NCBI GenBank assembly: GCA_963920575.1 | Contig: OY986974.1 | Location: forward strand, 7,330,617-7,394,616 | Source of the DNA: Narthecium ossifragum | Taxonomy: Eukaryota > Streptophyta > Magnoliopsida > Dioscoreales > Nartheciaceae | Length of the DNA stretch: 64,000 nucleotides | Direction: 5' to 3' | Shown here: positions 782 through 52,929 of the stretch, piece by piece | How positions within the stretch are numbered: position 1 is the stretch's first letter | Layout: the number at the start of each line of letters is the position of its first letter | Position numbers and translations under genes: made by a program | Notes under the pieces: generated by a model | What the model was told of the DNA's origin: nothing | The model's input: only the letters and a program-made list of their open reading frames with translations | Database searches by the model: none

Positions 782-2062
782 TGATCACTCGTGAAACGGT
801 GTCGTTAAATCGTACGCAAAACGTAATTTAGAAATTGTAAGTCCTTATTCAAACACTAAAGTATATGGTAGAATAGCGATGAAGTCCTAAGTCGAACCAC
901 AGGGAATTTATCTGTAAAGATTGAAATCAATTCTCAAAACCTTAAATCTAAGCAAAAGAAGTAATGATATGTTTGAATTAACTAAAGCTATCTAAGAAAA
1001 GCAATTAAAAGTTGTTGTTAAACCAATGACAAAGATACCTAGGGATTATTACTCAATCCACCTTAATTTCACTTTCTGTATTCTTCAGTTATCCTCTTTC
1101 TCCTTCTCTAAACATTATGAACTCACTACATTTTAAGCTTGCATGAATCCCTCCTATTTTTCTTGTTATTGGTTGTTTTCGATTCTACAACTACCTTACT
1201 TTATTCTACTCCTAATGATCTTAGCACAACCTATCTCAATAGCAAATCATAAATCACATGAAAACCATCATATGAATCTCTATAATCAATCATAAAAATC
1301 ATGTAGGACTGAAAGCATGTCAAGGGAACTTGGTTCCTTCAACTCTATTAACAATAAAAGCCATATTCATAGGATCATATCTTGAGAAGATTACAAGATT
1401 AAATTAAAGAATACAAAAAATTAGCCTAAGGCTTCATAAGATCCCTAAGTTAAAAAAATAGCTACTCATCTGTGTAATTGAGGCCATAGATTGGATGAAG
1501 AATACCAACGATCCACGCCGCGGCTCAGCCGTCTTCATAAAGCCTAATTCTCTCTATTCTCTCTCTGATTATTCTCAATTTTTAGCAAGAAAACCTATTT
1601 TTATAGAGGTATACTTGACCAAAGCCATAGCACTTCAGCTAGGATTCAATTTCTAATCTTTCTAAAACTTGGACTTCCGCCCGACCGATCGATCGTCACT
1701 GTTCATCGATCGATCATCAGTATGACCGATTGATAGTCTAGATTGTTTTTTCTCAGCAAACTTCGTCTTCATAATTCTTGAACTTCTGTAAGGAATTTTG
1801 TGAAGCTTACAACATGAAAGTTGTTCATCTTAGTGTCTTCTAGCAGTATTTCAGAAATTTAGGGATTTTCTGGAGATTTTGATGAATTGTTTTCAAACTA
1901 ACAGCGAAACAACGTATTTTCAGTATAATAGTCTTTTTCTATATTTTCTATCTTAAATTTTCATTAAACCTGAAATCAATTAACAAACTATCGTATACAA
2001 GCACTCTCGGGCTAACAAAGGTAAATTAAGGAGTCAAATTATGAATATTTCATAACTTATAA
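782..2062 (-). mobile_element. Solo LTR, Athila-type Ty3/gypsy
   Basis: This 1281-bp LTR is inserted in the LINE. On the minus strand it starts TTATAAGTTATGAAATATTC and ends GAGTGATCA. It is flanked by GGTAT (777-781) and TGTAT (2063-2067), a 5-bp duplication with one change. The sequence is homologous to the LTRs at 3019-4445 and 16495-18050. No internal region remains, so unequal recombination between the two LTRs probably removed it. Confidence 0.85.
1602..1735 (-). promoter_or_regulatory. LTR promoter: TATA box and upstream paired palindromes
   Basis: The minus strand has a TATAAAAATA box near 1611-1602. About 75-130 bp upstream of it are two GATCGATC palindromes, at 1687 and 1708 (21 bp apart), and a decayed third copy about 20 bp further on. 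The same arrangement occurs in several other LTR families in the window. The promoter role is inferred from position. Confidence 0.55.
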
Positions 2063-2067
2063 TGTAT

Positions 2068-3018
2068 TTGAGGTAATCATGCGATTCAGCAATTCCCATA
2101 AGTCTGCAGATGGATAGTCGTTGATCATCTACCGGTGTCGATGGAGAAATGAATGGATGATTTATCCACATTGATCCCAAGACCTGCCATTTGCCGCATT
2201 AAACCCAGGGTGTTACAAATCTTTAGAGCCTCCTCCTCGCTAACCTTCATCACAAGAATACAACAATCTGTGAACAATAGGTGTGTGAAGGCAAACTCAT
2301 CGCACTGGAAACTCACCCCCACTAGGCCACTTGCAGAATTTTTGAGCCAAGAAGAAAAGGTTTCCTGCATAAGTAAGAAAAGAAAGGGTGAGATGGGGAT
2401 TCCTTGACAGATGCCCCGCTGCGCATCAAAATGGCCCGAAATCCTCCCATTCACAATCATGGCAAAGCGTGGAGTGCATACGCAAGACATGATCCAACCA
2501 ATCCAGGTAGCCGAAAAGCCCATCGTTTCCATCACCTTCTTCAGAAAAGACCACTTGACCGAGTCATAAGCCGATTTGATATCTACCTTAACCAAGATGA
2601 GAGCCTTTGTCTTCGGGGAGATCCACAATGAATGATAAAATTCTTGGGCTATAGGGATGCTATCGAAGATGCTCCTATCGGAGACAAATGCAGATTGCTC
2701 GGGACTAATTAAAGACTCAATGAGCTATTTCAACTGACCCCTCCAGATTGATGAAATAGTTTTGTAAGTCACATTGCATATGCTTAACGGCCTAAAATCC
2801 TTGACCCTGCGTGGATTGGAGCATTTTGGGACCAAAGACATAAAGGTTTCGTTTAGTTTCTCAGGAGACGGCCAGTTGCAAAGAACTTCTCACTAAGTTG
2901 GTAACATTTGGGCCTACCACATTCCAACACTTGATATAGAACTATACTTGAAAACCATCATGTCCTGGGCATCTATTTTTTCCCATGGACCTAATAGTAT
3001 CCCAAATTTCTTGTGTTG
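2068..3018 (-). pseudogene. LINE ORF2, reverse transcriptase domain, decayed
   Basis: The minus strand encodes the RT palm of the LINE that continues at 1-781 and 4446-5150. Recognisable blocks are VDIKSAYDSVKW (catalytic Asp region), GICQGIPISPFLFLL and LLFTDCCIL, which stands where LLFADDSLI is expected. The second-Asp motif is therefore lost (TDC instead of ADD). Beyond 2628 the N-terminal RT blocks are broken by many stops. The left side is interrupted by the solo LTR at 782-2062 and the right side by the one at 3019-4445. Family identity is clear; function is lost. Confidence 0.85.
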
Positions 3019-6066: not shown

Positions 6067-8343
6067 TGTGAGGACCTGCCCCTCTACTCCAGTGGCTTGT
6101 TGTAGACCACAAGGGCAATTTGGTAAATTGTGCCTTGTTGGTTAGTTTCACACCCGCGTGGTGCACACACAGCTCCAATGTTTGATTTACGTGTTTGCTA
6201 GAACCCTAGGCGGGCTTGGGATCGAAAGATCCAAGCTCGGGCGCCAGAAGCCCGTTTTGGGGGCAGCTGGCGGCCCGCGTGCGATCGATCGCTCCTTGGA
6301 GCGATCGATCAGCCTTGTGTCGGTGGTCAGCGTGGCCGACGTGTTCAGATAAGGACGTAAACCGACTTAACCTGGCCTAGTCCGATCGATCGGTCCTGGA
6401 GCGATCGATCGGACTCGAGCCTATAAATAGCCCGCGACCTTCCCCTGTTTTTCCAGTTTTCTCCCGTCTTCTTCTTCCTCTCCGTTCTCCCTCCTCCAGC
6501 CACCATTTTGTGCGTTTCAAAGCTCGTTGGATCCGTGGCGACGTGAGGAAGATCCCTGGTGTGATTTGGAGCTTTGTTAGTGACTGGTTTGCGGGGAATC
6601 AGCCGAGGATTAGAGTTTCCGGTAGGTTTCTACCTACTGAGTTAGTTTAGGGGTTTTCTTTGGATCTAGTTGGTAGATCTTGTTGTTCTTTGTGTTGTTG
6701 GCTTCCTCTTGCTTAGTATAATTTCTGGTTTAAGTTCCATAAGCTTTGGTTGAGATTTTAGTAGGATTTAAGCATGTTTAATCTCAGATTTTCTGGTTTC
6801 TGCTGTTCTTGAAAAACAGCCGGTTTGCGGCGAGGTTTCCAACCAGTACGTGCATGTTCTTGGGTTGTGATGAACATAAGAGTGGTCGATCTTTGAATAT
6901 AATCTCAAACCCAACTGATTTCATAATTTTCTGATTTTTGTTAGATTTGTTATAAATTTCTTATTGGTGGGCTGCGTTGCAGCAAGCAATGATAAGTTAG
7001 TTTGATTAGCGGTTTTAATTAGTGTTTGCCCGTTAATATAGCCGTTGAATGTTTCTGGATTTTGGATATGTTGATCTTGGTATGTTGCTATACTGGTGGC
7101 TAAGTTAGATCTCGAATCCGACGCCGTTTGGACATCGGATCGACGGGGTCAATTAGCCCCTAAGTAGAGGATTTGTTGTGATTTAAATAATATTATATGT
7201 TCGAAACATATAATATTATATTTTACAATTCATTGAGGTTTTCGGGGTTGCTTCCCATTGCAGAAATCCGCGGTTGACGGTCGTGATACCATCGTAATGC
7301 CGGGACCCACTGCGGATCGGCTGACAGCAGTTGGTAGTACCGCTGCAGCGATCCGATTGGACTTGTATGCTATCCTTAACATACTGTTGCATGCTTATCT
7401 CTTATCTGTGTATGTTTATAGCATGCATTCTTGGTTGTGCATTAGTTGCATGGTTAGGGCGTGGGTGATCTGTGGGTCGCCGTCCCGAGGCTGGAAGCTC
7501 GGATTTAGCCCTAAGACCGGGGTTGGGTAGTTTGGACCCGGTTCGAATTGTGTTGTCCAGTCAAACTTGATGATAGGCTTAGATGACTGGTACACTTGTT
7601 GCTTGGTAATTATAGAAGTCATGTCGGCCTTGAGTCAGATGCTGAGGTGTAGCCGGTGTTCCACTGTGTTGACTCTGCAGTAGAGGAGTTGCCTACTCAG
7701 CGGTGCCATTTCCCGCATGCAGTGTCGTGTTCCTGCTTGTGAGTCAGCAGTGTTGTTTCCTGCTATTAAGTGTGACCTGACATGTGACCATCTTGGCTAG
7801 AAGACCATGATCGTGGGCCTCAGGGACACGCGGTGGGGTTATGGGACCCATGTATACACCCAGGTCTTACTTGAGGGCGACACTGTTGCGTTTCCCTCTT
7901 CCTTCTATGTGTTGTAGTGTAGATCCCTACTGAGCTTTATGCTCACTCCTACTCGGGCTGTGTTTTGCAGGTGCAGGCGTCAGTTCTTCTTTTATGACCC
8001 CTACCGGGCAGTGGGTTGGCGGTGCGGCGGCGCTAGGCGGAATCTGAGAGGTGGTGATCTTTTACATTTTTTCTACCCTATGTTAGATAGTCTCCTACGG
8101 GAGTAATGTTGTATTCGAATCTTCCCCTCTCCGAGGACTTGTATATTTTTATTCGCTTTTGGGTTTGTAATCTGTGGTTCGAGGTTTGATTATTTAATTG
8201 TTGTTTTAAATTGGGGGTGTTTGATGAATTGCTGGGGAGACCAATAGGTTAGAGGGAACCCTCGCCAATATTTTTTCACGGTTTGTTAGGTTTCTGTTCG
8301 CGTCGCCCGGCCCGGTTGGGCTTTCGTGGGTCGGGGCGCGACA
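6067..8343 (+). mobile_element. Solo LTR, family B (2.28 kb)
   Basis: It starts TGTGAGGACCTG and ends GGGGCGCGACA. It is inserted in the integrase GPY/F region of the chromovirus, between WVFLKLD and RPYWQN. The flanks GTCGG (6062-6066) and GTCGA (8344-8348) form a near-perfect 5-bp duplication. The whole sequence is homologous to 31873-34173 and partly to the family A LTRs. It contains no protein domain. Short open frames inside it are not genes. Confidence 0.9.
6283..6430 (+). promoter_or_regulatory. Family B LTR promoter with paired palindromes
   Basis: A TATA box (CCTATAAATAG) lies at 6420-6430. Two pairs of GATCGATC lie upstream: at 6283 and 6303 (20 bp apart), and at 6384 and 6403 (19 bp apart). 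The first pair is part of a longer inverted repeat centred on CTCCTTGGAG. A CT-rich stretch follows the TATA box, as is common in plant promoters. Confidence 0.65.
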
Positions 8344-9249
8344 GTCGAGTTTCAAGAAAACCCAATCGCCAATTTCAAATTGTACTTCTCGCCGTCGTAT
8401 ATCGACGAGTTGTTTGGTCATGCGGATTGAAGAATAGAGGTTGTGCTTCAACTATTTAAGGATTTCATGTCGGCCCAGTAGTTCCTTGTCAACCTCTTCT
8501 ACAGGGGAGCACCTGTTTATGTAGTTGGGAATAACAAGCGCGGCCTGACCATAGAAAGCTTCAAAAGGTGTCATTCCCGTCGATGAGTGATAGGAAGTAT
8601 TATACCAATACTCCACCCAACTCAAATATTGCACCCATCCCTTGGGGTTCTGGCTCACAAAGCACCTCAAGTACCACTCCAACCAACGGTTGACTAACTC
8701 CGTCTGGCCATCGGTTTGGGGATGGTATGCCGAACTCATCTTAAGATATGTTCCCTGCATTTTAAAGAACTCTTTCCAAACGTTGCTCATTAAGATGGGA
8801 TCACGATCACTTACAATAGCATTGGGTATCCTGTGAAGTCGGAGTACTTGATGAATAAACGCCCTGGCTACCTTCAATGCCGTGTACGGGTGAGCTATAG
8901 GTATAAAGTGCGCATACTTTGTGAGCCGATCGACAACGACCATAACCATATCCATCCCTGCTAAACGTGGCAAGCCCTCGACAAAATCCATTGAAACCTC
9001 TTCCAGACATCATTTGGAATCGGTAATGGTTGCATCAAACCGGCCGGCTTTCGTGAATCGCTCTGATTTTTCCAGACAAATGTCACAAGATGATACATAA
9101 ATCTTAACATCTTTCCTCATACCTTCCCAATAAAACACTTGAGTGAGCCTTTTAAGGGTGCGTAGGACTCCTGAATGCCCTCCGATAGGTGAGTCATGGA
9201 ACTCTTGTAGCAATTGTCGATTGAGCTTGAATTTTGGCAGAATCACCAC
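8344..9249 (-). pseudogene. Integrase (zinc finger and catalytic core) of the chromovirus
   Basis: The minus strand encodes the HHCC zinc-binding region (two His in HDSPIGGHSG, Cys pair in SSCDIC) followed by the catalytic core. The first Asp is in MDFVEGLP, the second in IVSDRDP and the Glu in DGQTELVNRW, so the DDE triad is visible. A TGA at about 9010, apparently from a one-base loss just before MDFVEGLP, separates zinc finger and core. The core is open over 8991-8452 and continues to WVFLKLD at 8350, where the solo LTR interrupts it. It is not functional as it stands. Confidence 0.9.
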
Positions 9250-14085: not shown

Positions 14086-16046
14086 TTAGGTGGATGGACC
14101 ACCACCAGCATATCTAGTCTCCGGACAACGATGACGTCTAAGTCTCCATCGTGAGACTTGTGGGACCATCTCGTTATGCATGATACTTTCTAGATAGGGA
14201 TCCTTAAGGGCTGCAGGAAAAGGCACTTTTGGTGTGTATGTGCGTGGGTCAGGTTCATTTTCATCAACTGAATTTGGATTCACTTGATTAGGAGTATCAT
14301 CAGGTTGCTGTGGGGGCAGAGACCGATCGGTCGGACCAGTATCCGATCGATCGGAATAGTTCCGATCGGTCGGATCTGAGAGCGATCCGTCGCTCTGGGC
14401 AGTGTCAGGAAGTGTATCTACTTGCTTACCGTTCCTTAAGGTTACTACAGCTTGTGCACTTTCAAATTTCTGGTTATCAATGTGGTGTAGGGCCCTAAGA
14501 TTGGTCATAGGTTGACTCGGTAAGTGACCCTCCTCTCTCTTAGACATTGTGTTAGCCAGTTGCCCTAGTTGTGTCTCTATTTTGGATATAGATTGTGCAT
14601 GAGAATTAACATCGTTTCTTAGCAATAAATGATCATTCCTTAGCAGACTCATTTCATTCTTAAGCTCAGTTTTCATGCTTGTAAGTGCACTGATGATGGT
14701 GTTCAAAGCTGGGTCAGAGACTGCTTGTGGAAGCGGTTGAGGTGCAGTTTGTTGATATGGAGTAGAATACCCTGGGTTGGGAATTGCAGAAGGTCTAGGT
14801 AGGTACCGATTTGTGGGAGCACTAGAAGAACTACTCTGTCCTTGGAGAGTACTAGACTGTTGGGGTGGTCTCCAGCTAAAGTTGGGATGGTTTCGCCAAC
14901 CTGGATTATACGTATTTGAATACGGATTATTTTCAGGTTTAGTAAAACCATACGCCGCGTTTGCTTGCTCCTGAACAAATTCAGGAAACGATGGAGCTAG
15001 TGGACAATCGGTAATGTGATGTTCAAGACTAGAGCATAGTGCACATGTTTGAGGGTGATCTTGATATGATGGAGGTGCAGGTGATTGACTCACTTCCAGT
15101 TTATCAAACCTTTTGTTAAGGAGGGCTATTTGGGTGGTAATGGCTTCTAATCCAGAAAGTTCAAAGGTTCCCTTAGTTGTAGGCCAACTTCTAGGGGTTG
15201 TGTATTGTTGTTGGGAATCAATGGAAATTTGTTCATAAAGGTTCCAAAGCTCATCATCATCTTTATCTAAAGGAATAACCCACAACAAGCTTCAACCCTA
15301 GTTTTACATCTTTCATTAAGGCCTCTATAAAAGTTATGAGTTAATTCCCACTTATCAATATCATGATGAGGACATTTTCTCAAAAGGTCTTTAAATCTAT
15401 CCCATGCATCATGAAAAGACTCATCGTCATATTGAACAAAGGTAAGGATTTCAGTCTGAAATTTCTCAGTTTTAATCATGGGAAAAAGTTTCCTTAAAAA
15501 TGCCTCTTGAAGTTGGTCCCAAGTTGTGATTGAGCGTGGAGGTAAACACTGAAGCCAGTGTTTAGTTTTATCTTTCAAAGAGAAGGGGAAAAGTTTCAAC
15601 TTAAAGGCGTCATCATTAAAGTTTTCCATTTTCATTGTAGCAATGGTATCGATAAAATTGTGAATGTGCTCATATGGGTCCTCATTACTTAAACCATGAA
15701 AGTGTGGTAACATTTGAATCGTTTGGGGTCTAATCCCATAGTGTGAGGCTGTGATTGCAGGAGGATTAATGGAAGGAGTGTAAGTGTAGGCAGTGGGCAA
15801 GAAGTGATTTCTCAAAAGAACACGTTGTACCCCCCCATTGTTATTATTATTATTGCCCTCCCTTCCCATATTAGCATTAGGGTTGATGACATGTCCCTCA
15901 TGTTCAGCCATGGTGACAAAGGTCTCGTGAATAGATTGCAAGTTACTCAAAGATTGTTGACCTAAGGCTCTAGCTTTTCGGAGTGTGGTCTCTAGTTCAA
16001 GATCCAAAGGTTCCAGCGGGGTATTTAAGGATCGTCTACATTGCAT
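14086..16046 (-). pseudogene. Gag of an Athila-type Ty3/gypsy element, frameshifted and truncated
   Basis: Two overlapping open frames (16046-15267 and 15288-14086) together give a plant retrotransposon Gag of about 650 residues. The first has the capsid signature (LFPFSLKDKTKHWLQCL, TTWDQLQEAFLRKLFP, SFHDAWDRFKDLLRKCPHH). A frameshift at about 15270-15288 joins to the second, which carries a zinc knuckle (CALCSSLEHHITDC), a Pro/Gln-rich region and REEGHLPSQP. The homologous Gag at 48204-51053 continues into protease after PFPSAL. Here the frame diverges at the same point, which marks the deletion. Residues like SDRSD in the C-terminus come from palindromic DNA at 14325-14391. Confidence 0.88.
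14325..14391. repeat. Four spaced GATCGxTC palindromes inside gag
   Basis: GATCGGTC at 14325, GATCGATC at 14345, GATCGGTC at 14364 and GATCCGTC at 14384 are spaced 20, 19 and 20 bp. They lie in coding sequence and produce repeated DRS residues. The spacing matches the pairs in LTR promoters elsewhere in the window. Confidence 0.85.
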
Positions 16047-16170
16047 GCAAGATCACACACAAACAGAGAAAAAGAAAATAGAATATTCGGAGGAGAGGAC
16101 AAAACCCGGAAAACAACAATTGAAACGACAAAAATTTGAAGTAAAAAGACTTAGCTGACTGCGCAATTCC

Positions 16171-16283
16171 GATCGGTCGGTTTCCAGTCCGATCGGTCGC
16201 TCCAGGCCGCAAGCTCCTTCACTCGAAGTCCACTTCAAAGCAAATGGCGTAATCCGATCGATCGGATTCAAGTCCGACCGATC
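16171..16283. repeat. Paired palindromes in the leader of the Athila-type element
   Basis: GATCGGTC occurs at 16171 and 16191, and GATCGATC at 16256 with GACCGATC at 16276. Both pairs are spaced 20 bp. They lie between the primer site and the gag start. Confidence 0.85.
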
Positions 16284-16494: not shown

Positions 16495-18050
16495 TGATCG
16501 CTCGCAAACGTTGTCGTTAAAACGTTGCTAACCTCAATCAAATCTTAAATTCGTATCCTTGTTCAATCACTAATACTACTAAGTAGACTAGTGGTGAAAT
16601 CCGGAGTCAAACCACAGGGAATTACTAGGAAAACCAAAATCACTTCTCAAAACTCTTGATCTAAACCAAACACTCCAATGATAGACTGATCTAACTGAAA
16701 TTATCTAAGAAAGCAAAAGAAAATATTAAGGTTTTAATCAGATGGAAAAAGATGTCTTAGGAAATACACAATCCACCCTAGTTTCACCCTTAATCTTCCA
16801 TAGTTATCATCTCGATCACTTCTCTAAGTATTATGGATCGTATGGCTACAAGCTCACACGAATCCCTAAAAGAAGGTTTTATGTTTCCTACGGCATAACC
16901 TATCTTTGTTTGGCATAAATCATCTTTGGTCCTACCATTATCTTAAATTATTCTACTCCTAATGACCTTAGCATGACTTATCTTCACGTAGCATAGATTA
17001 TCTCAAAGGTAAATCACAAACCACATGCAAACTATCTCATGAATCCCTACACTCAAGTACAACCATCATGTAGCACTAATGATACGTCAACGAAACTCTG
17101 TTCCTTCAACTCTATAATCATTAAAATCATATTCATGAGATTATACTTAGAGAAGTTCACAAATATTCAATTAAGAAAGATCAAAAGTTACACTAGGGTT
17201 TCATGGTATTCCTAAGAACAAGAAAACTAGCCACTCATCTCTTGGAAATCAGCCATAGGTGTAGAAGATGAAGCCGTCGATCCCCGCGGAAAGATCACCG
17301 TCTTGAAAACCCTAACCTTCTCCTTCAAAAGTGCTCCAAAAGATGATAATTTTCGGATGGAACAACCCCCTTATGTATTAGAAACCCTCAACCCCGGAAT
17401 TAGGAGTTATATTTGGACTTAAACTCTAATTTCCCTAAATTCCGGGTCGTTGACGTCATCGGCGCGATCGATCGGACTTCCCAGTTTGACTGGGTTAATA
17501 GCTGCCACGTCATCAGCCTCCTTATTCTTCAATTTCTACTCAGAATTCTGCTTTGTAGTCAATTCTGAAGCTAATCTGTACAGAATCTGGGAAAGTCTTC
17601 AACAGGAAAGTTATAGATCTGGAAGTCTTCTGTCATCTCACAAAAATTTCATAATATTCTAATTTATATAGAATATTTGGAGAATATTCTCTTCAGCATC
17701 GACGGTGCAGCTTTCCAGCTTATGTATATTCATGTATTCTTCAATTCTGCTATCACACCATCAGGAATCTCGCAAAGTATCCAACATAAATATTGTAGAT
17801 CTTGAAGTCTTATATCATGTACTAAATTTCCAGAATATTTGGACTTATACAGAATATCTGCCGAATATTTTCCTGACAGGCAACGAAGCAGTCTTTATCA
17901 AATAAATTCATCTTCTTAGCCGAAACTCTTGTATTTCTTCTCAAAACCTATTTAAACCTGAAATCAACTAACAAACTATTAAATACAAACACTCTAGGCC
18001 TAACAAAGGTAAATTAAGGGGTTTAATTATGAATATTTAGGGACTCATCA
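16495..18050 (-). repeat. 5' LTR of the truncated Athila-type element
   Basis: This 1556-bp LTR starts on the minus strand with TGATGAGTCCCTAAATATTC and ends GCGAGCGATCA. It aligns with the solo LTRs at 782-2062 and 3019-4445. A single CGATCGATCGG palindrome lies near 17464. Confidence 0.9.
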
Positions 18051-18881: not shown

Positions 18882-21263
18882 TGTGACACCCCGACCCAGA
18901 AAACCCATCCAGGATGGGGTGTGAGGGTTCCTATCACTATTCACATCCAGCTGGCGCGATACATTTGCGAAAAAGAAGAGTTAATCTTAAACAATTTAAC
19001 TTTCAGAGATAAAGTTGTAATTCAATTCATAAATACATCAAGTTGTACTGTTTAAACATATGATACAATTTCTTATCAAACTCCTCCAAGGCAAAAATAT
19101 TGTATATATAATCCAAAAATCCTCGAAAGATGTTTAGAATATACAAAACTACCAAAAGTACAACAGTCGTCCTGCAGCAACCTCAAACGCCTCTGGAAGT
19201 AGTCGTGCCACCAAAAGGTCGCTCCCGCCGGCTCTAGTGAGGAAGAACTGGCGCCTGCATCTGCAAACGCAGCCCGGGTAGGAGTGAGCGATAAACTCAG
19301 TAGGGTTCTACTCTACGGCACACTGAAAGGAGGAAAACAACAACAGTGATGTCTCCCCGCTCAAGCCTAAGGAATGCCATGGGGTCCCACGACCCCTATC
19401 GACTCCCCAAGGGATCCTACTCTTCTCGACCGACCACGCTGGGAACATCAACCAAACATGCTGGGAGGAAAACAAAGAACCAGAACCAGTATGAACACCC
19501 TTTACCCAGCAGGAAACCACTGCCTAGAGACCATGTCAGAGACATCGACAACCATCCTTAGTACGTGGCCTTGGGAAGACACCACGACCTCTAAACCTCA
19601 AAGCAAAGATCATAGCCAACTATAACACATCCTCGATAACATAAGATTCCAATTATACAATCACGCCCTAATCTTTACTACCCATCCGCGGTTCTAAGGC
19701 TACATCCGAGCTACCCAAGAGCCTCGGATCGACGATTAAGCCATCACCCGCCTAACCTGATATGCCTCTACTGCATAGAGTGCATGAACCTATGCAAACA
19801 TGTATCCTAGATGTCTCTATATGCCACAACATCAATTATAGGTTCAACAGTTATACAATAGCCCTCGCATTCGCCGATAACGGGCTAAGGTTCCACAATA
19901 CCTCGTTAGCTAACACTCATAGTATTTAAACTACTATCCAACCAAGTATTTAAATGCGGGTAAAAACCGTAAATTCGTCAAAGAGGTTAAACTCCCGATC
20001 CAATTCCCAATCTCGGTAGAAATCCATTAAATATCCCGTGAAAACAATGTGTATGCTTCCTAACATGATTGGATATCTATCATGAATGAAAACCAATCAA
20101 AGAAAACCAGAAAACACTGCTCAGGGGCCCACGGTCGATGCGACGGTCGATCCGACGGTCGACCGTGGGGCCAAACGAGGGAAAAGCATAAGGGCCACGG
20201 TCAATCGGTACATCGACCGTGGGAGGCCCAAAACGAGACAGAGCCTGACGGTCGATCCGACAGTCGACCGTGAGGCGGAATGGAAAAAGGGAAGGAGCCC
20301 ACGGTCGATCGGAACATCGACCGTGGGAGGTCCAGAACGTGACAGAGCCTGACGGTCGATGCGACGGTCGACCGTTAGGCCAGAAAGAAGCGTATCAACG
20401 TTTGACGGTCGATCCGACGATCGACCGTCGAGCCTAATGCACAGTTCCTCTAAACAGTGTCGGATATCTAATTTCTTGGATTTGAATGATCAAATCTTGT
20501 TGGAAAATGATGAAACTTTACAAGCATGCGTAATAAATGATGGAGAAGCTATTAGTATGAAGAAAACACGATTTTGATGGTTAAATCTCAAATCTAGGTC
20601 TCAATGGCCGAAAACCGACAAAACGGCGATAATACGAGAATCGTCCAATAAAATACCGAAATCACACGGTAGGAATACTCGAAGCAAGTTATAATACTCA
20701 AGCATTAAGCTCCACAACATTCTACCAAGTACTCCTACATCGAAATCACAATAAACCTATCCTAGGAGAACGCGATTACAAGATCGAGGTAGAAACACCT
20801 ACTTGATCAGGTAGGGCAGCTCCTCCACGCGTACAACCAGTTTAACCGCCAAGATCCGCTCCTCGAAGACCGCGCCTCCAAGCCCTAGCTCAGCCGGTTG
20901 GAGAGAGGAAGAGAGAACGACAGGAGAAGAAAGGAGAAGCCAGGAAAGAGAGAGAAAAGAAGGGTTTAAATAGGAAGCTGAAATCGATCACAGCCGTCCG
21001 ATTCGATCTCTCCCGATCGAGCTCCGATCGAGCTCCGATTAGAACCAGTTTAAGGTTCTAATCAATCACATGCATCAATCAAAGGCAATGTGTGCAACGC
21101 AGATGTGAAACTGACCACCAAAGAGCATATTTACCATAATGCCCCTGGGTCAAAAACAATGATGCGATAAACCGATCGCATCCTAAGGCCAACCGAGCCA
21201 AACCACAAAACAAGACCCTCGACCTAACGTGGTAGGACCGGGTTGGAGGTACGGGTCCTCACA
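18882..21263 (-). mobile_element. Solo LTR, family C (2.38 kb)
   Basis: On the minus strand it starts TGTGAGGACCC and ends GGGTGTCACA. Perfect 5-bp duplications GGAGA flank it (18877-18881 and 21264-21268). Homology to family A LTRs is concentrated in the block around 19230-19320, which contains the reverse complement of ACCCGGGCTGCGTTTGCAG. The TATA box (CTATTTAAA on the minus strand) is near 20973. No coding domains are present. Confidence 0.93.
20131..20431. repeat. Array of GGTCGA/TCGACC palindromes in the family C LTR
   Basis: Repeated copies of GGTCGATCCGACGGTCGACC and close variants, such as GGTCGATCGGAACATCGACC, occur several times. Each is a roughly 20-bp palindromic unit whose TCGA cores are 12 bp apart. 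The array is about 0.55-0.85 kb downstream of the minus-strand TATA box, so it would be transcribed. Confidence 0.8.
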
Positions 21264-31872: not shown

Positions 31873-34173
31873 TGTGAAGACCTGTCCCTCTACCCCTGTG
31901 GCTCGTTGTAGACCGCAAGGACAATTTGGTAAATTGTGCATTGTGGGTTTGTTTTACACCCGCGTGTGCACACACTGAGCTTTTTTGTGTTAGTGTTGAT
32001 TAGAAAGGTTAGGTAGACCTGGGATCGAAAGATCCGAGCTTAGGCTTGAGTTTTAGCCCAAGTCTAGCTTTCTGCACCTAAGGGATCGATCTTTCCTTTC
32101 TCGAAGATTCATCGTTTAATGCCAGAAAGTCAAGGCGCGATCGTCATGAAGTCGATCATTTATAGGTCGGTTCGTTTGTCTATAAAACGGATGTAACTTT
32201 CTTTCTTGAATCCCTTTTGAGCTCAGAGCTGCCGGATTTTGAAGAGATTTCGGACGATCCAAGGCCTTGCAGTTGGGATTGAAGCTGCTCTAGGCTAGGT
32301 AGGGATCCTTCCTATGTTTTTCTTTTCGGTTTTGTGAGCTTGAGTTGTTTGTGATCTTCTTTTGCTTAGATCTTGATGCATGTTTGTTAGTTTGCTGTAT
32401 TATTACTGATTTTGGACTCGTGGTCCTTCGTACTACCATATCCCAAGGTTTTGTGGGATTTGGTAGAGTTTTTCGACAGTATTTCTCGTCGGAGGTTCGC
32501 CGGAGAACCCAACAAGATCGATCTTTCTTGGAGAAAGATCGATCCTTCATTGTTGGTCATGCTGAGCCCGAGCATGATCGATCATCTGGTGAAGATCATC
32601 GATCTTTGTTCCAGGGTAGCATGGATGCCCTCGTCGTGAGGAGGATCGATCTTCATGGGACGAAGGATCGATATTCCTTGGCGCGACAAGGAGGGTGCCC
32701 TCTGTTGCGAGGATGATCGATCCTCCTGGGAGGAAGGATCGATCTTCTTTGGCTCGACAGGAAGGGGAGGCTCTCTATTACTTGGAAGATCGATCTTTTC
32801 TTAGGAAAAGATCAATCCTTTGGTAGCAGAGAGGAGTTTTCATTGGCTTTGCCCGCGAGGCTTTGTATGTAGAGATTTTCTTACAGCTTTATACATTGTA
32901 CATATCCTTAAGCATGCTAGCCCCATATTAGGGGTAGTGGTGAACCAGGAGAGTGATAACTCTTGGGATGTTTAGAATAAGTGGGCGAGTAGCCCTACTG
33001 CTTTCCATAGCCTTGCATGCTGGCGTTCGCCGAGGGCCTTTACCTGCGTGGTTTGTCTTCTGTTGTTTACGGGGCTGCTTCCCGATGCAGGTTGCTGGTG
33101 AACTGGCTGGCAGTTCGTGGTGTACCACTGCAGCAGTTCCAGACCCTAAATATATGTTCACCACCCCGGGCCGGCAGAGTGCCGAGCCCAGACCTTGTTA
33201 TGCTATCATCACATCCTGCTGCATGCTTAACTGGTTATATGTGTATGTTCATCGCATGCATCTCTGCTGTGCATTAGTTGCATGGTTAGGGCGTGAACAA
33301 TCTGTGGTCGCCGTCCCGAGGCTGGAAGCTCGGATTTAGCCCTAGGACCGGGGTCGGGTAGTTTAGACAAGGTTTGAATTGTGGTGTACAGTCAAATTCA
33401 ATGATAGGCCTAGATGACTGGTACACCTGTTGCTTGATGATTGTAGAGGTCGTATCGGCCTTGAGTCGGATTCTGTCGTGTAGCCGGTGTCCCACTGTGA
33501 TGACTCTTGAGTAGAGGGGTTGCCTACACATCGGTGCTATTTTTCGCCAGCAGTGCCGGTTCCCTGCTTGTGAGTCAGTAGTGTTGGTTCCTGCTTACTG
33601 AGTGTGACCCATCATGTGACCAGTTCTTCTGGAAGACCATGATCGTGGACCTCAGGGACACGTGGTGGGGTTATGGGACCTCTGTATACACCCAGGTCTT
33701 ACTTGAGGGCGACACTGTTGTGTTTTCCTCTTCATTCTGTGTGTCGTAGTGTAGTTTCCCTGCTGAGCTTAGTTGCTCACTCCTACCCGGGCTGCGTTTT
33801 GCAGGTGCAGGCGTTAGGTCCTCTTTGGTGGCCCCTACCGGGCAGTTGGTCGACGGTGCGGTGGCGCCAAGCGGAGTCTGAGAGGTGGGGATCTTTTATT
33901 GCTTTAAACCCTTGTTAGTTAGTCTCCTACGAAAGTGTTTATATGTTGTATTCGAATCTTCCCCTCTCCGACGATATGTATATTAAACACTAGGTTTTGT
34001 AAATCTGTGGTTTGAGGTTTGTAAAATTATAGTTTTTAATTTGAGGGTGTTTTAATGAATTGCTAGGGAGACCAATAGGTTAGAGGGAACCCTCGCCAAA
34101 TTTTTCCGCGTTTCAATAGGTTTCGGTTCGCGTCGCCCGGCCTGGTTGGGCTTTCGCGGGTCGAGGCGCGACA
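31873..34173 (+). mobile_element. Solo LTR, family B, second copy
   Basis: It starts TGTGAAGACCTG and ends GAGGCGCGACA, and aligns along its length with 6067-8343. It is inserted in the family A solo LTR. The flanks CTTGT and CATGC are a weak 5-bp match. The TATA box (TATAAAA) is at 32181-32187. The conserved ACCCGGGCTGCGTTTTGCAG block is near 33786-33805. Confidence 0.87.
32512..32822. repeat. Hairpin-forming GATCGATC repeats in the family B leader
   Basis: Five inverted pairs such as GATCGATCTTTCTTGGAGAA followed by AGATCGATC occur, with cores 21-22 bp apart. They lie about 0.33-0.64 kb downstream of the TATA box. The other family B copy (6067-8343) lacks this array and instead has pairs upstream of its TATA box. 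Confidence 0.85.
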
Positions 34174-35687: not shown

Positions 35688-36344
35688 TGTGAGGACCCAT
35701 TTCTCTAACCTGACTCGACCGTGTAGGTCGGGGGCCGTGTCTGTTTCTGCATCGAGCATGAATGGTTGATAGCATTGTTGATTTTGGACCCCAAGGGCAA
35801 TTACGTAAATTACGCCTTGTTGGTCGGTTTCACACAAATCGTCCTGTCGATCGGTTCCACACACGACCCCATGAATGATGATTATGCTTCTTAGAACCTT
35901 AGGCGAGCTTGGGATCGGAAGATCCAAACTTGGGCGTGAAAGCTTGTCTTTAGGATAGCTTTCATCCCAGGAGCGATCGGTCGGCCCTTGGGGCGACCGA
36001 TTTGACTCGAGGGCATCACCGCTGAGGTGTATGTTTGGGCAACGAACCAACCTAGTTCGACCGATCGCAACTTTATGCGATCGATAGGACAGGGCAGGTA
36101 TAAGAACCCGCCAGCTCCGCTGTTTCTTCTCTTTTTCTTCTTCTCTCCCCCACTGCTAGGGTTTCGTGAGGGAGGTTGTTCCAGTAGCTTGGAGGGGTAG
36201 ATTTAGGCCATCTTAGGACAGATGAATCAATGATTAAGAGAGGAATTAGCGTACTGAGGTAGGATTCTTAACCTAAACCTTTATTTAGATGTTCTAGGTT
36301 GAACTGAACCTTTGTTTTCTTGATTTCTTCGTGCAAGATGATGT

Positions 36345-37307
36345 TGAAGGTCTAAGAGGGGGTTGGTCTTAGGTCTTATAAAAGAAAATCAATTATCGAA
36401 ACCTAGAGACGAGGAGTCTAATTAAACCATAAGCTTGTAAATAAATAGAGGATAAAATAAAGCAAGTAAATGAAGGATAAGAGATGAGAGTTAGACAGAT
36501 TGGACAAGATTTTACAGTGATTCGGCCAACCTTGCCTACGTCCACTTCACCCAAGGGTCCTCCTTAGGGTTCCACTACTTGTAAGACCTCTTATAAGATT
36601 TCCTCCAAGCTTCCGGGTTCTTGGCAGCCTTACAATCTCTTACATGACTTGAGTGTTGGGTACACTCCAAGTCACTTTTGGATATCTCTCAATGTCTACT
36701 TCATAACTTGAAGTAGTTTTCCAAAGGTTAAGAGGTTAAGCTCTTAAGAAGAAGACTAAAACTTGTTACAATGTTTACAAATAACCCCCTCAGTCTTGCT
36801 GCAAGTTTACTGCTTCGTCCTATTTATACTTGAACTCCAAGGCCCTCCAAATAGCCTTCCAACAGCTATTATATGCTTCTGCAACGGCTCTTTAACGACT
36901 AGTTTCTTAACTGGCGGTCGACCGTCGCATCGTCCGTGACTTTATCCGTCGTGTTCTTCTTCAGCCGCGGTCGATCCACGCATCGACCTACAAGCTTCAC
37001 GATGGACCGCCACATCGACCGTCACATCGTCTGTAAGCCTCTGTGAGGAGAAACACTTCCAGGGTCGATGGCTCATTCGACCGTCGCTTCATCACATAAG
37101 GTCATATAGGCCACGGTCGACCGGTCCATTGACCGTCGGCAAATGACCTCCGTGGTTGATTTGTGTATCAACCGCCACATCGACCGCTAGTATAAAAACA
37201 TATAAATATTGAACTTAATGATTTCCAAATTAAGGGATATAAAAATTAAACCAATGTTTTATCATCATGAATATATTGACATTATCAAAACAAGGTTATG
37301 ACTAACA
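36345..37307 (-). repeat. 3' LTR of the copia element
   Basis: This 963-bp LTR, in plus orientation, starts TGAAGGTCTAAGAGGG and ends GACTAACA. Its minus-strand TATA box (TATAAATA) is at 36828-36821. GGTCGA/TCGACC palindromes lie upstream of it at about 36914-37190. Confidence 0.93.
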
Positions 37308-41215: not shown

Positions 41216-43101
41216 ATTTGAATTCATTGTAATGAATCGTAAGTCAATTTGAAGTATTCCTTAGTTATTTGTAAGGAATCCTTCTAAATTTAAAGTATTC
41301 CTTAGTTATTTGAAATCTTAATGTGAGGAATCATAGTAAATTTGAAGTTTCAAAGCCAAGTGATGTAATGGCTATTAATTGGTGTGGACCCCAAGCTCCA
41401 CTAAAGTTAGCCTAGGTGTACGAGACCAACTCTTGTCTGATCCAATTAACTGGAAAAAAAAAGAAACAAGAGTTATTTTAAAGGAATATATGATAATATT
41501 TAAAGGAATACATGATAATATTTAAGTAATACATGGTACGGGCCCAAGCTCCACTATAGGAGGCTCTCAGCAGTACATTAATTGGTACGGGGCCCAAATA
41601 CTTTAAATTTATAATGATTTCTTATAAATAATTAAGGAATATTTCAAATTGATGGGATTCCTCTCTTCCAACCCTTTGTCTCTCTCTTCCCTGGCTCTCT
41701 CTCTCTTCGGACTCCCTCTCTCTTCCGCCCCCTCGCTCCCTCTCTCTTCGGACTCTCTCTCTCTTCGGGACGGGGGCGCCGGGCGAGGTGCCGGAGGAAG
41801 AGGGAGGAAAGAGAAATAGAGGGAGGAGAGAAAGGGAGAGGGGGGGAGGAAGAAAAGGAGAGGGGGAGAAACAGAGAAGGAAGAAACAAAGGAGGAGAGA
41901 GTGTGGGGGGGGGGAGAAAGAGAGGGGAGAGAGGAGAGAGAGAGAGAGGAGAGAGAGAAGACCATATGGAGAGAGAAGCATGTGGAGAGAGAGAGAGGAG
42001 AGAGAGAGGCAGGTGGAGAGAGGGAAGCTCGACACTCTCTTTTTTATTCTGCAGGTGAACAGTATCTCCTAAGTAATAACTAATAATTAATACCTAAAGA
42101 TTCCTAACTAATAACCAAGGATTCCTTGAAATTGATAAGAATTTCTCACATATGCAAGAATAAAATTGACAGATAGCATTAAGAAATTCCTCGCATAAGT
42201 AAGGAATTTTCTGATTTCTCTCTCTCATACTTGTGTCAGGTGGCATCAAATGATGAGAGAGTGTTGACAAGGGGCAATTTAGTCCCGAATTTATGGATTT
42301 ATCCTGTTTTGTAAAGAAACACAAAAGTGTCTCTTGATTGACAAATCAAAAGACAAGTGGATTTAAAAAGAAAATAACACCTCAGTCTTGCTGCAAGTTT
42401 ACTGCTTCTTCCTATTTATAATTGAGCTCCAAAGCCCTTCAAATAGTCTTCCGACGGCTATTTTTTGCTTCTATAACAGCTCTTTAACGGCTACTTTCCT
42501 GACTGGCGGTCGACCATCGCATATCGTTCGCCACATCATCCGTCGTGTTCTTCTTGAGCCACGGTCGATGCACGTATTGACCTTTAAGCTTCACGGTCGA
42601 CCATCATATCATCCGTCAGCCTCTGTGAAGAGAAATGCTATCCAGAGTCGATGCCTTGTTCGACCGTTGCTTCATCACATAAGATCACATAGGCCACGGT
42701 CAACCGGTTCATCGACCGTCGGCCTATAACCCATAAATGACCTCCGCGGTTGATTCGTGTATCAACCGTTGGACTCCATGGTCGATTCGTGCATCAACCG
42801 CCGCATCGACCGCGATTACAAAACATATAAATATTGAACTTAATGATTTCCAAATTAAGGGATATAAAAATTAAATCAATGCTTTATCATCATGAATATA
42901 TTGATATTATCAAAACAAGGTTATGACTAACATATGCTTCTAGGGTTGTTTGATAATTTATTGGAGCTTGGAATGATTTGATTTAGATTTAAGCCGGATT
43001 TATGCAAGATTTTCTCGGGTTTCTATCTGATTTCTGTTTGAAATGAAACCGTTATGTTCTAGCTTAATTCTAGCCTTGTAAAAAGTATGAAACCGTTATG
43101 A

Positions 43102-43413
43102 TTGGGATCGATCCATTAAGAATCCGGATCGATCCAACATTGGATAAAAAGTATGGCTTTCTGGAAAAGGGTCGGGATCGATCCGAATTACTTTGGGATC
43201 GATCCAAAATGTCCTTGGATCGATCCAAATTGTCCGGATCGATCCGAATTAAGCTGAATCTGTATAATTGATGTCTTTTGGCTCGAAATCAATGCAACTC
43301 TCTTCGTAAGCTCTTGTACCTGAAATCATATGAAAAGATATTAAAAATGCATTGCTTGAGAGCTAACAAAGCCCAGTTGAATGGGTGAATTATGTATATT
43401 TTGTGACTTATCA
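43102..43413 (-). repeat. Truncated 3' LTR
   Basis: This is nearly identical to 52617-52929 but ends where flank sequence begins at about 43101. Only the first fifth of the LTR remains. Confidence 0.93.
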
Positions 43414-43430
43414 CACCCCCCAACTTGAAC
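43414..43430 (-). other. Polypurine tract
   Basis: The minus strand reads CAAGTTGGGGGGTG directly before the LTR start TGATAAGTC. The preceding GCTCGAGGACTAGCAAAG is typical of this class of gypsy element. Confidence 0.88.
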
Positions 43431-45436: not shown

Positions 45437-46759
45437 TCAACTCTCATCACTCGGTAGAACTGGTTGCACAACTGCGGGACTAGGAGTATCATCTACTGGA
45501 GGATCCTCCGGTAAAATGCTGAAATCCTCCGTCTGCGTGGAGGTCGAGACTGTGTTTGGTCCTGCTGGGCACATCTTTGCCAAATAAGCAAGTATTTTTC
45601 GGAGCTCTTGGTGTGTCTCCTGCTGGAAATAATGTAAATCCGTCTTAACAGCACTCAAGGAATGATCAACCTCCTCTAATCTCGCGTTCATTGCGAGGCG
45701 AAGATCCTCTAATTCAGAGGTCGACTCATCCTTCGAAGGGGGTGGTGGATCCTGTGGAGCAGGCACAACTGCTAAAGGTGGAGGAGGATCAACTAGTGGA
45801 ACAGCTGGTGGAACAGGCTGCCTACTAGCTAGGATGGAGGCAATCTCCTGTTTGGCTTTGGCCATTTTAGAAATGACCTTGCTCCAAGTATTTTGGCCAA
45901 AGAAGGAGGAGGATGGAGCTTCCATAGTAGGCTCATCAGCAGGAAACCAAGGTTGACGCACAAGGAAATCAGAGATGCGGCAAGGGTGTGGAAATGGCTT
46001 TGTCTTATTCTTGTTATCAGCATTTTTATGAAAATAATCCATGTCATTGAGAATTAGGGATGGAAAAGGAATGGAAACATTCTGAAGGAGACACCACAAA
46101 ACCCATAACCAATCACCTATGCGGTGTTGAGGGTGAGCCGTCTGAAAAACATTCTGACGTAGAACATCATCGATGAACCACAATTGTTCATCTAGTTCGC
46201 GTCGAAAAATCTCGCCAGTGTAAGCTCGTACTAGAACGATTTCAGAGGCATCCCATTTTCGAACGGTGGCATCATAACGGGTAGCAGGGGATGCTATAGG
46301 GATATCTAAAATGTTACTGATGGTTTTAGCTATGAAAACTACATGATGACCCAAAATTTGAGATGTAAACCCTCAGCAATTCTTATCCTTAGCTGACTGT
46401 GGTGGAATAATTTCCAGATTTTGATAGAAAAGCCGGATTAACCTAGGATAAATGATTCTACTTGGTGAGCAAAGCCCTAAAGCTCGGTGTTGCTCCAAAA
46501 AATGAATCGAAGCTACTGATTGTGCATGATTGCGGAAGAACGGAATGTCAAATTGGAACTCAAATTCAAAACCACGGTTTTTCCAAAGTTCAAGAACAAT
46601 ATCACCCGTGGTTTCCGACGCTGACGGTCGACTGCGCTTGCTTGGTGATTGAGGAGGTGGTGCAGAAGAACCAGACGCTCCTGCCGAGGAAGAAGCACCC
46701 AGAGCACCCCTTTTCTTCTCCGGCGTCTTCTTGGCTGCAAGCTTCTTCTTTGGCCTCAT
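45437..46759 (-). pseudogene. Env-like second gene of the Athila-type element
   Basis: An ATG at 46759 opens a frame with a Lys-rich start (MRPKKKLAAKKTPEKKRG), a Ser/Pro linker, and then IVLELWKNRGFEFEF, SRIIYPRLIRLFYQNLEI and, after one stop near 46370, GRELDEQLW-like and HRIGDWLWVLW blocks. This matches the plant-specific domain found after pol in Athila-type elements (putative plant transposon protein). The C-terminus is Pro-rich with a coiled-coil-like segment (LEDLRLAMNARLEEV). One stop splits an otherwise open frame of about 440 codons. No transmembrane segment is obvious, so a true envelope role is unproven. Confidence 0.7.
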
Positions 46760-46935
46760 GGAAGCTAGGATGACGGGTGGATGTGTGGTGGAGAATCACT
46801 GGTAGCTAGGACCGTCGGTAATCGCCGGAGATGTGAGAGATGAGAAGAGAGACGGGAGAGCGTCGGAGGAGGAAATGGGCGAGAAATGCCCTAACTAACG
46901 CACCAAAGCCTTTAAGTGTGTTTTTAGTGGAGTTT
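46760..46935 (-). promoter_or_regulatory. Putative internal promoter and 5' leader of the env-like gene
   Basis: Between the palindrome array and the ATG at 46759 the minus strand has CACTTAAAGGC near 46918-46908 as a possible TATA-like element. It is followed by a pyrimidine-rich stretch (CTCTCCCGTCTCTCTTCTCA) like the Y patch of plant core promoters. The layout array, AT-rich box, CT-rich leader copies that of the element's own LTR (array 52414-52762, TATA 52350). This is inference from layout; no transcript evidence is available. Confidence 0.4.
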
Positions 46936-47347
46936 GGATCGATCCAATAAGGACTTGGATCGATCCCAAACACGTGTCATGATCGCAGATGGTAACTTGA
47001 CTGACGTGGCAAGGATCTGGATCGATCCCAATTAGACAAGGATCGATCCACACGGTGACAGAATGACCCTTTTTTGAGGTCATGTTGGATCGATCCAAAC
47101 AAGGGTTTGTATCGATCCGAACACACGGTTCCGGATCGATCCAGGACAATTTGGATCGATCCAAATTGTCCCACCAAGAATTGTGCTTACTGAAAGATAA
47201 ATGTGGATCGATCCAAATTAAATGTGGATCGATCCAACCAGTGACAGAACGTATGTCCTGGAAGACCGTTTTGGATCGATCCATTAAGGATTTGGATCGA
47301 TCCAACATGTGTTTGTGGATCGATCCCAAGTAAATATGGATCGATCC
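46936..47347. repeat. Seven pairs of GGATCGATCC palindromes
   Basis: Pair starts are 46936/46957, 47019/47040, 47087/47109, 47133/47153, 47205/47226, 47273/47294 and 47317/47338, so within-pair spacing is 20-22 bp. Pairs begin 44-83 bp apart. A few members carry one changed base. The array lies upstream of the env-like gene and outside the LTRs. Confidence 0.95.
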
Positions 47348-47710
47348 ACCCAGGAGCGCGAATTTTAAAGCACCCTAAAAATTGTCTAAAAATACAAGAT
47401 TTCACTCCAAAATGAATTTTACTTCTATTTCACCCCACTTCTCAATCATCCATGAATAATAATCACAATTATAGCTCACACATGCATTAACTCAAGATCA
47501 AACATATATCCAATTTCTACTCGAACAACAATGAAATTTACAGAATTAAAACCACTACAAAACAAGAAAAACAAGAACAAACAATCAAGCATACAAAGAA
47601 AAATGAACTATGCATGCATTCAATCAAACATATAACAACAAGCAATCATGCAAGTAATAAAGGTTGGGTTGCCTCCCAACAAGCGATACGTTTAACGTCT
47701 TTAGCTAGAC
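47348..47710 (-). other. Pol-to-env junction region
   Basis: Mostly non-coding. Near 47667-47700 the minus strand reads GACGTTAAACGTATCGCTTG then TTGGGAGGCAACCC, the sequence that normally follows the integrase end in Athila-type elements. It marks where pol would have ended. Confidence 0.55.
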
Positions 47711-51053: not shown

Positions 51054-51273
51054 TCACAAAAGACAACACAAAATTAGAGATACTATACAGTGGGCTGGTC
51101 CAAGAAGTCTTTGGTCTTGATCCGTAGATGATTTGCTTCGCCGCTCGAAAGTTTCACCTACCAATGCAAAGAAATAGCTATGTAAGAAAAATTCTTTTTG
51201 TTATTTTATAATATGAAAAATCAAAACAAACTAATTGTAAAGAGTTATATCAATTGAGTAGTTCAACTAATCT

Positions 51274-51294
51274 AATTCCCCGGCAACGGCGTCA
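51274..51294 (-). other. Primer binding site, tRNA-Asp
   Basis: The minus strand reads TGACGCCGTTGCCGGGGAAT, matching the complement of the plant tRNA-Asp 3' end (TGGCGCCGTTGCCGGGGA) with one change. It lies four bases after the LTR end. Confidence 0.92.
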
Positions 51295-51298
51295 TTTT

Positions 51299-52929
51299 TG
51301 ACTCACCTTGAAATATGTCATTAAGTATATCAACGGCGGACAAAACAATTAACCGGACTAATAGCTAACTACAACATAGCTAGTGGAAGCACGGGTCGAA
51401 TCCTCAAGGAATTAGATGGTCGAATTAATAGACGTGATATAATCTCTATAATAGTTGAAATTAATATGGTTGGTTCACTTAGTTTTCTAACGAAAGTATT
51501 CTAGAAGACTAAAGAGGAAATTTATCAAGGAAGAATTCCTAAGGAATTTCAATCCGAATTAGGGTCTAAGTATTATCTCTATGAATCAAGATGCATGATA
51601 CTCAAGAGATCGTCTAAAATGGATATCGACGAGCGTAGGATTAGTATCGCTCGCCGCTAATGAGATGTCGGGTTAGGATCATCTCATCGCGTGCATAACA
51701 AGGTGAAGATCCATGATCGAGGTCCTAATTCGATCATAGCTCAATGATCGCCGGACTAAGGTCATACCGTTGGCAAAGAATCAAGGTTTTGTATGGATAA
51801 AATCTTGGATTGAGATGGTTTTAATATCTCAATCCAATCCCTCGTCTAAGTCACGAATGTTGGATAGGATAGCTTTGGGTTGGGGTGGTTCTAGCACCTC
51901 AAGGATTCATCCCTAGAATTGGTCATGGTTCTAGCATAGCCTCTTCTTTGAGGAATTAAATCAAACATCTAGTAAGCATCATCTTATTCTCAAGCATTTC
52001 CATGTAAAACAAGGGATTCAACCATTCAATAAAGGAATTCATTGAAGAAATATAGAATTACATGAAAATTCATACAAAAACCATCTCTCAAGAGTCATTA
52101 CATCAAGAATCAAAAGAGAAATCTAAGAGAAAGCTCTAAGACATCATGAAATTCCCAAGGAGGAGGGATTTAGCTACTCATCTTAGGTAGGATATCCATG
52201 GAAGAGGAGGCTTTACCCATCTTCTCCATCAAAATCCAACCCTTGAAGCACTCAATCTGTCTCTAACACTAAGGGGGAAGAAGGCTGGAGAAAGGAGGGA
52301 AAAAGAGTGAAGAAAAGATCCTAAAATTAGAGCCAAAACCCCTATTTATAGACCCCAAGTCGTGGATCCTCGGATTAGATCCGAGCCGTCCATTTTTAAC
52401 CGTCAACGATCTTGGATCGATCCGAAGTAGGCTTGGATCGAGCCAAGATGAGCAAAAGATCATAGCTTTCTGGGAAGGAAATATGGATCGATCCCATTTA
52501 AATGTGGATCGATCCAATTTGTACCCAAGAATAAGTGCTCTTGGGAAAAGAAATATGGATCGATCCCATGACGGTTTGGATCGATCCATTTTGTACCAAG
52601 CTCTCTAGGAAAAGATATTGGGATCGATCCATTAAGAATTCGGATCGATCCAACATTGAATAAAAAGTATGGCTTTCTGGAAAAGGGTCGGGATCGATCC
52701 GAATTACTTTGGGATCGATCCAAAATGTCCTTGGATCGATCCAAATTGTTCGGATCGATCCGAATTAAGCTGAATCTGTATAATTGATGTCTTTTGGGTC
52801 GAAATCAATGCAACTCTCTTCGTAAGCTCTTGTACCTGAAACCATATGAAAAGATATTAAAAATGCATTGCTTGAGAGCTAACAAAGCCCAGTTGAATGG
52901 GTGAATTATGTATATTTTGTGACTTATCA
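51299..52929 (-). repeat. 5' LTR of the Athila-type element
   Basis: This 1631-bp LTR starts on the minus strand with TGATAAGTCACAAAATATAC and ends AAGGTGAGTCA. It is distantly related to the other Athila-type LTRs in the window. Confidence 0.92.
52343..52762 (-). promoter_or_regulatory. LTR promoter with six pairs of GGATCGATCC
   Basis: The TATA box (TATAAATAG) is at about 52351-52343 on the minus strand. Upstream pairs start at 52414/52435, 52485/52506, 52557/52578, 52621/52642, 52691/52712 and 52733/52752. Spacing is 21 bp in all but the last (19). One site (52435) has a single changed base. A CT-rich leader follows the TATA box. Confidence 0.75.

Follow-up and report, generated by a model that had tools for sequence, protein, structure and literature searches.

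Why do short palindromes centred on TCGA recur in pairs, about two helical turns apart, in the long terminal repeats (LTRs) of several retrotransposon families? The question is raised by a stretch of 64,000 nucleotides of Narthecium ossifragum DNA (contig OY986974.1 of assembly GCA_963920575.1; C12:7330617-7394616 in a genome of 379.4 Mb and 150 contigs), referred to here as the window, which contains many nested repeats. An earlier note on this DNA had described such pairs upstream of TATA-like boxes in Athila-type LTRs and in two further families, A and B, and had proposed a common host factor. Judging from the sequence, we consider it probable (about 0.6) that the palindromes act as LTR promoter operators for a dimeric DNA-binding factor.

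Palindrome arrays and the TATA register

TCGA-centred palindromes of at least 8 bp number 82 in the window against 13.6 in shuffles, and those of at least 10 bp number 52 against 3.6. Pairs at exactly 21 bp occur 15 times and in none of 50 shuffles, which bears out the expected excess over shuffled controls; these pairs include duplicates, 43101-43413 being a repeat of 52617-52929 at 98%. Genome-wide, GATCGATC N9-16 GATCGATC was found at 77,781 places, compared with 18 for a reversed control. This query returns centre distances of 17-24 bp only; among the 57 distinct pairs listed, the distance was 22 bp in 31, 21 bp in 10, 23 bp in 8, 20 bp in 6 and 19 bp in 2, and the proposed spacing near two helical turns is upheld. 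A sample of 20 stretches, 10 kb each, had GATCGATC as its most frequent palindromic 8-mer (35; A/T-only words excluded); pairs with a TCGA core at 18-24 bp were counted 11 times there, those with any other core at most twice. GATCGATC was present in ten of 30 sampled genome stretches (250 kb in all). Together with the mostly fixed TATA distance of one large group, described below, the paired spacing makes the arrays look like binding sites of a regulatory protein and not like chance.

The youngest Athila-type element of the window, Ath3 (43101-52929, minus strand), carries 26 distinct GGATCGATCC sites, 12 in its U3 region and 14 before its second open reading frame (ORF2). Of these, 24 have the 10-bp core without a mismatch. 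Pairwise identity by column is 0.92-1.00 in the core and 0.26-0.65 in all other columns, and spacers of equal length share a mean identity of 43% around the fixed core. Two-mismatch intermediates of GGATCGATCC were not found in the Ath3 arrays, no exact copy lies in the rest of the window outside arrays, and the flanks of the Ath3 sites show no covariation. A fixed core with diverged flanks, no intermediates and no covariation points to a protein site. In a viral collection, a pair of the 10-mer was found on two contigs and no relative of the gag protein was found.

The Athila-type sites of the window lie upstream of the TATA box, as had been claimed, when read in the orientation of their elements, which is the minus strand. 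The nearest GATCGATC centre is 69 bp from the start of the TATA box in Ath3 and 68, 68, 69, 67 and 69 bp from it in the genome arrays G1, G18, G20, G28 and G30 (loci L001, L018, L020, L028 and L030). Ten further arrays were chosen from the genome pair list with their TATA boxes unseen. The first five gave 68, 70, 70, 68 and 69 bp; two of the second five gave 70 and 70 bp and the other three were out of register. These three align to a group of elements with LTRs of about 2.3 kb and the other seven to Athila-type U3s, and all seven Athila-type arrays chosen before TATA inspection fall in the 67-70 bp register. The nearest site lies 67-70 bp from the TATA box in 13 of the 17 Athila-type U3s examined, a count that covers the named arrays rather than the genome and includes close relatives (G28-G30 80%, L043-Ath3 77%, G18-L045 81%). 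The label 'Athila-type' is given by coding sequence for Ath3 and AthL2 and by chains of alignment otherwise.

Words like AAAATCAACGG and GATCTAATCCGAG were observed between the last site and the TATA box, in the 51340-52340 region and in L001, L018, L020, L028 and L030. From sequence they are a candidate second promoter element of Athila-type U3s.

The carriers belong mainly to two LTR groups, each alignable internally: the Athila-type elements and the group with LTRs of about 2.3 kb starting TGTGAGGACC (A, B, W32, X20, Y26 and loci L035, L041 and L047-L049; strand read from the TATA box of family B), whose alignable members share 62-81% identity. The three older Athila-type LTRs of the window align mutually at 62-69%; the alignment of Ath3 with two of them is limited to about 140 bp. 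The palindromes of the earlier note were all present, several of the family A sites being imperfect. Its statement that the families are not alignable fails for A and B, whose alignment (68% over 375 bp) spans the palindromes, and stands for the Athila-type and 2.3-kb groups, between which no alignment was found outside arrays. Nor is shared descent excluded, contrary to the earlier conclusion: position and core are inherited within each group, A and B being relatives. Placement upstream of the TATA box holds for most U3s examined; other arrays lie in the leader or gag, before ORF2 or about 600 bp inside 2.3-kb LTRs, and because CCGATCGATCGG-type palindromes occur at 14320-14371 inside the ORF next to gag, they are not confined to promoters. 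Arrays not previously noted were found at 46940-47342, 43109-43240, 26697-26984, 32519-32813, 14326-14367 and 16174-16279, and CGGTCGACCG arrays near 20.1, 25.0, 36.9 and 42.5 kb.

A third kind of carrier consists of Ty1/copia LTRs (36343-37307, and 39071-39517 with 42372-42932; gag PF14223), whose arrays carry CGGTCGACCG, often with TCGA centres 12 bp apart. X20 also carries CGGTCGACCG, and its array aligns to a copia array at 61%. Beside one CGGTCGACCG array, at 24788-24960, lies a 32-bp tandem unit with GGATGCATCC/GGATCATCC palindromes of a different centre.

Neutral turnover, in which tandem duplication and palindrome-correcting replication errors would spread ancestral (GATC)2 words, would account for the tandem units of about 72 bp and for the relatedness of the U3s, 38 of 55 pairs of which give a match. 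It fits poorly with the diverged spacers around a fixed core, with a TATA register that persists among U3s aligning at about 59-83%, and with a core CG kept in 26 of 26 Ath3 sites, albeit sites that were found by that core. We consider this explanation very unlikely.

Half-site classes and the putative reader

In each site two GATC half-sites abut (GATC|GATC), and outside them lie about 1-4 bp more whose sequence is typical of the array. The usual distance within a pair is 20-23 bp, and a repeat unit of about 72 bp (22 + ~50) is found in many arrays. Reading outward of ATC|GAT, the half-site is CCAAA in both Ath3 arrays (U3 and ORF2), L043, L044 and L051; CGGAC in G1, G28 and G30; CAT in L042 and L045; CTTC in L046, Y26, W32 and L048; CCT in G20 and L047; CCC or CTC in L041 and L050; CGCTC in B; and mixed in G18 and L049, these classes being short and drawn after the data were seen. 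Variation of the outer half-site is seen from one array to the next and not inside an array, and even related LTRs may carry different ones. The half-site was of one class in both arrays of all three elements compared (Ath3, L041 and L047); the similarity between the pre-ORF2 and U3 arrays of Ath3 is 0.65, compared with a median of 0.25 over all pairs. L046 and G1 are 78% identical over 198 bp beside the array with a half-site similarity of 0.04, and L050 and G1 are 77% identical over 182 bp, yet their half-sites differ. Classes also recur across the two LTR groups (L046-Y26 0.71, L046-W32 0.65, G20-L047 0.59). Across arrays, the extensions covary in 141 of 228 cases against 70.2 expected (z 9.9); with partners permuted within 17 arrays, the match is 188/300 against 176.8 (p 0.024). 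Covariation is thus strong across arrays and slight within them, and the symmetry is therefore mainly a property of the array.

These matches bear on a quite unlikely alternative, that the palindromes act as RNA hairpins or DNA cruciforms feeding small RNAs and silencing. Such a role has reportedly been proposed for maize Sirevirus palindromes. Compared with dinucleotide shuffles, the two Ath3 arrays fold at much lower energies (z -11.6 and -13.1), and other arrays lie also below spacer shuffles that keep the TCGA core (z -5.3 for W32, -5.8 for Y26, -5.8 for X20 and -4.3 for A2), but by the latter measure Ath3 reaches only -2.1 and -2.3. Among facing-arm pairs picked by hand, arms match their own partner in W32 and Y26 (35/45 against 25.0, p 0.0008) and in A/B (22/30 against 18.3, p 0.02); in Ath3 they do not (35/70 against 36.7). 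The excess under permutation inside arrays is slight, G-U pairs are not above A-C mismatches (10 vs 15; 31 vs 41), and the sense strand folds about as well as the antisense strand. Support for hairpins is mixed, and the within-array permutation and the absent G-U bias weaken it.

Under the operator reading, a dimeric DNA-binding protein would occupy each palindrome and two dimers, bound to the same helix face, would jointly drive transcription, repression being less likely. Arrays before ORF2 and inside 2.3-kb LTRs may have an equivalent role for other start sites. The factor would be a host protein family with paralogs differing in outer specificity; the half-site classes vary from array to array, which a single factor of uniform specificity would not explain. 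The earlier suggestion of a common factor acquired by exchange or convergence agrees with the GATCGATC core and some classes being present in two groups, the factor itself staying putative. It is possible, if doubtful, that LTR groups which do not align outside the arrays share an operator design of tandem GATC in pairs two turns apart, with the TATA register fixed in Athila types. Its half-site classes would be exchangeable and would switch as whole arrays between related elements, several trans-factors of one family, host or element, working for or against the elements in an arms race.

As readers of GATC, the GATA zinc-finger proteins of plants are the leading candidate for the factor, though rather unlikely to be it; we offer them as a lead only. 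In the sections of PMC11525189 devoted to the motif, GATC motifs are bound by plant GATA factors and raise expression dose-dependently. The likeness to the arrays here lies in the GATC core, with a motif whose copy number raises expression and which is conserved in vascular plants; the difference is that the motif acts downstream of the transcription start site (TSS) and that its consensus misses several classes here. The consensus YVGATCBR fits 18/25 and 23/29 GATCs in the Ath3 arrays, 22/23 in G1 and most in G28. A single GATA specificity was rejected, as YVGATCBR misses G20, W32 and Y26. No DNA affinity purification sequencing (DAP-seq) paper with ATCGATC was found in the open-access literature.

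Several observations weigh against the operator reading. Four Athila-type U3s depart from the register: the distance is 86 bp in AthL1 and 47 bp to a weak box in AthL2, AthL4 lacks an exact site, and in G37 the distance is 70 bp if a weak box is taken and 132 bp if a stronger one is. In several genome arrays the strand was set by the TATA box itself, and further TATA-like words occur in L046 and L050, one in L050 being strong. The distance differs in the 2.3-kb group (B 16 bp, A1 17 bp to a weak box, L047 28 bp), and for the other arrays of that group examined no TATA box was found. YVGATCBR fits 0/24 GATCs in G20, 0/18 in W32 and 1/16 in Y26, and the GATC effect is described in the same sections of PMC11525189 as minimal upstream of the TSS, where most arrays lie.

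Alternatively, a DNA-binding protein encoded by the elements, for example an anti-silencer like VANC, might read the array of each family, protein and half-site co-evolving. Half-sites that are uniform across an array, equal in both arrays of the three elements compared and divergent between the related L046 and G1 would follow from such a reader, and VANC motif arrays are likewise family-specific and evolve by tandem repeats (PMC5735166, in its account of the motifs). That account describes dense non-coding motifs turning over with tandem repeats, as here; unlike here, VANDAL elements are DNA transposons, their motif is YAGTATTAY in one orientation and their element-encoded reader is known. 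A VANC-like reader explains class switching better and sharing between groups worse, since each LTR group has classes that are also found in the other. Moreover, the 2.3-kb-group copies examined have no long ORF of their own, a search for homologs of the ORF2 piece was empty at E<=0.001, and between the two LTR arrays of the element at C1:89-98 kb the genome list shows no exact pair, so that this element lacks a comparable array ahead of an ORF2. We regard an element-encoded reader as unlikely, and the host family of the operator reading is preferred.

Comparison with Sirevirus repeated motifs

By analogy, the closest known kind of array is the repeated motifs (RMs) of Sireviruses. In the parts of PMC2829016 that treat them, RMs are short palindromes, specific to a family, that are present in many copies upstream of the LTR TATA box and recur before env. 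The Vitis RM is given there as CGGTCGACCG, the Tnd-1 RM (ACAATCGATTGT) has a TCGA centre, and 12 of 13 published RMs bear a CGG-CCG signature; they are described in Ty1/copia elements and called absent from classic ones. The arrays here resemble them in the copies upstream of the TATA box in Ath3 and 12 further Athila-type U3s, and in the copia arrays with the Vitis word. They differ in that CGG-CCG is confined to the copia arrays, the main GATCGATC arrays lacking it in most classes, and in their hosts, which are Athila-type (the PF03732 gag and putative Athila-type primer-binding site of Ath3) and another LTR group. Relative to what those parts report of RMs, the 20-23 bp pair spacing and fixed TATA distance are features of the arrays here. 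Ath3 has extra copies before ORF2, a putatively env-like gene; none is listed in the C1:89-98 kb element. GATCGATC arrays in Athila-type elements with this spacing and register were not found in the open-access literature; the occurrence of GATCGATC in PMC5288721 is a ligation-junction string and an unrelated use.

Features of the window

Coordinates are given in Table 1. No Pfam family passes for an Ath3 ORF judged by eye to be a pol remnant, and the PF20167-like score of the second ORF2 piece (30.3 bits) is under the curated cut-off of 45.

Table 1. LTRs, palindrome arrays and coding features located in the window
Feature	Position	Strand	Remark
Ath3 5' LTR, 1.63 kb	51299..52929	-	starts TGATAAGTCAC at 52929
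Ath3 U3 array, 12 GGATCGATCC sites, 11 exact	52413..52760	-	mostly 21-bp pairs
Ath3 TATA box TATAAATA	52343..52350	-	69 bp to nearest exact GATCGATC centre
Ath3 primer-binding-site-like word TGACGCCGTTGCCGGGGA	51277..51294	-	presumably Athila-type
Ath3 gag ORF, 949 aa	48204..51053	-	PF03732
Ath3 second array, 14 GGATCGATCC sites, 13 exact	46935..47347	-	directly before ORF2
Ath3 ORF2, first piece	46373..46795	-	ATG at 46759; no Pfam match
Ath3 ORF2, second piece	45437..46372	-	PF20167-like, E 4.8e-07
Ath3 polypurine-tract-like CAAGTTGGGGGGTG	43414..43427	-	precedes 3' LTR
Ath3 truncated 3' LTR, six exact GGATCGATCC	43101..43413	-	98% identical to 52617-52929
Athila-type LTR	799-2060	-	
Palindrome pair in U3 of older Athila-type LTR AthL1	1685..1714	-	nearest site to TATA 86 bp
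Athila-type LTR without exact site	3013-4445	+	
Athila-type LTR AthL2	16493-18056	-	
Single palindrome CGATCGATCG in AthL2	17464..17474	-	
Two palindrome pairs between AthL2 LTR and its gag ORF	16170..16283	-	
Three palindromes CCGATCGRTCGG inside ORF after gag	14320..14371	-	
Family B LTR-like unit TGTGAGGACC...GCGCGACA, ~2.3 kb	6067..8344	+	strand by TATA box
Family B, two palindrome pairs	6281..6411	+	16 bp upstream of TATA at 6422
Family A copy 1, two imperfect pairs	22526..22642	+	weak TTTAAG TATA-like, 17 bp from nearest exact site
Family A copy 2, two imperfect pairs	35974..36086	+	
W32 array in 2.3-kb-group LTR, CTTCC-type half-site	32515..32817	+	pairs 21-22 bp
Y26 array, GAAGATCGATCTTC type	26693..26988	+	pairs 22-23 bp
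X20 array, ACGGTCGAYC.. type	20131..20432	-	TCGA centres 12 bp apart
CGGTCGACCG array in Ty1/copia LTR	36914..37181	-	relatives near 42506-42811 and 24980-25220

Three further features were observed. A 576-aa ORF at 54647-56377 (minus strand), in which Extensin_2 repeats and closely packed tandem repeats of 48 bp were seen, is probably a host extensin-like gene. Two matches to plant snoR71 at 15358-15463 and 50440-50546 (plus strand; 54.3 and 41 bits, gathering threshold 40) lie antisense in Athila-type gag ORFs and are perhaps a chance resemblance of gag and not a small nucleolar RNA. At 58971-61648 (minus strand), a reverse transcriptase with zf-RVT and RNase-H-like domains belongs to a non-LTR element of the long interspersed nuclear element (LINE) type.

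Read as operators, the palindromes would give abundant plant LTR elements a countable promoter architecture, and they may offer a direct route to the reader of Sirevirus-type palindromes, a protein on which the 2010 paper did not settle. If half-sites switch across whole arrays between related elements while core, spacing and TATA register stay constant, the co-evolution of element promoters and their regulators would become testable.

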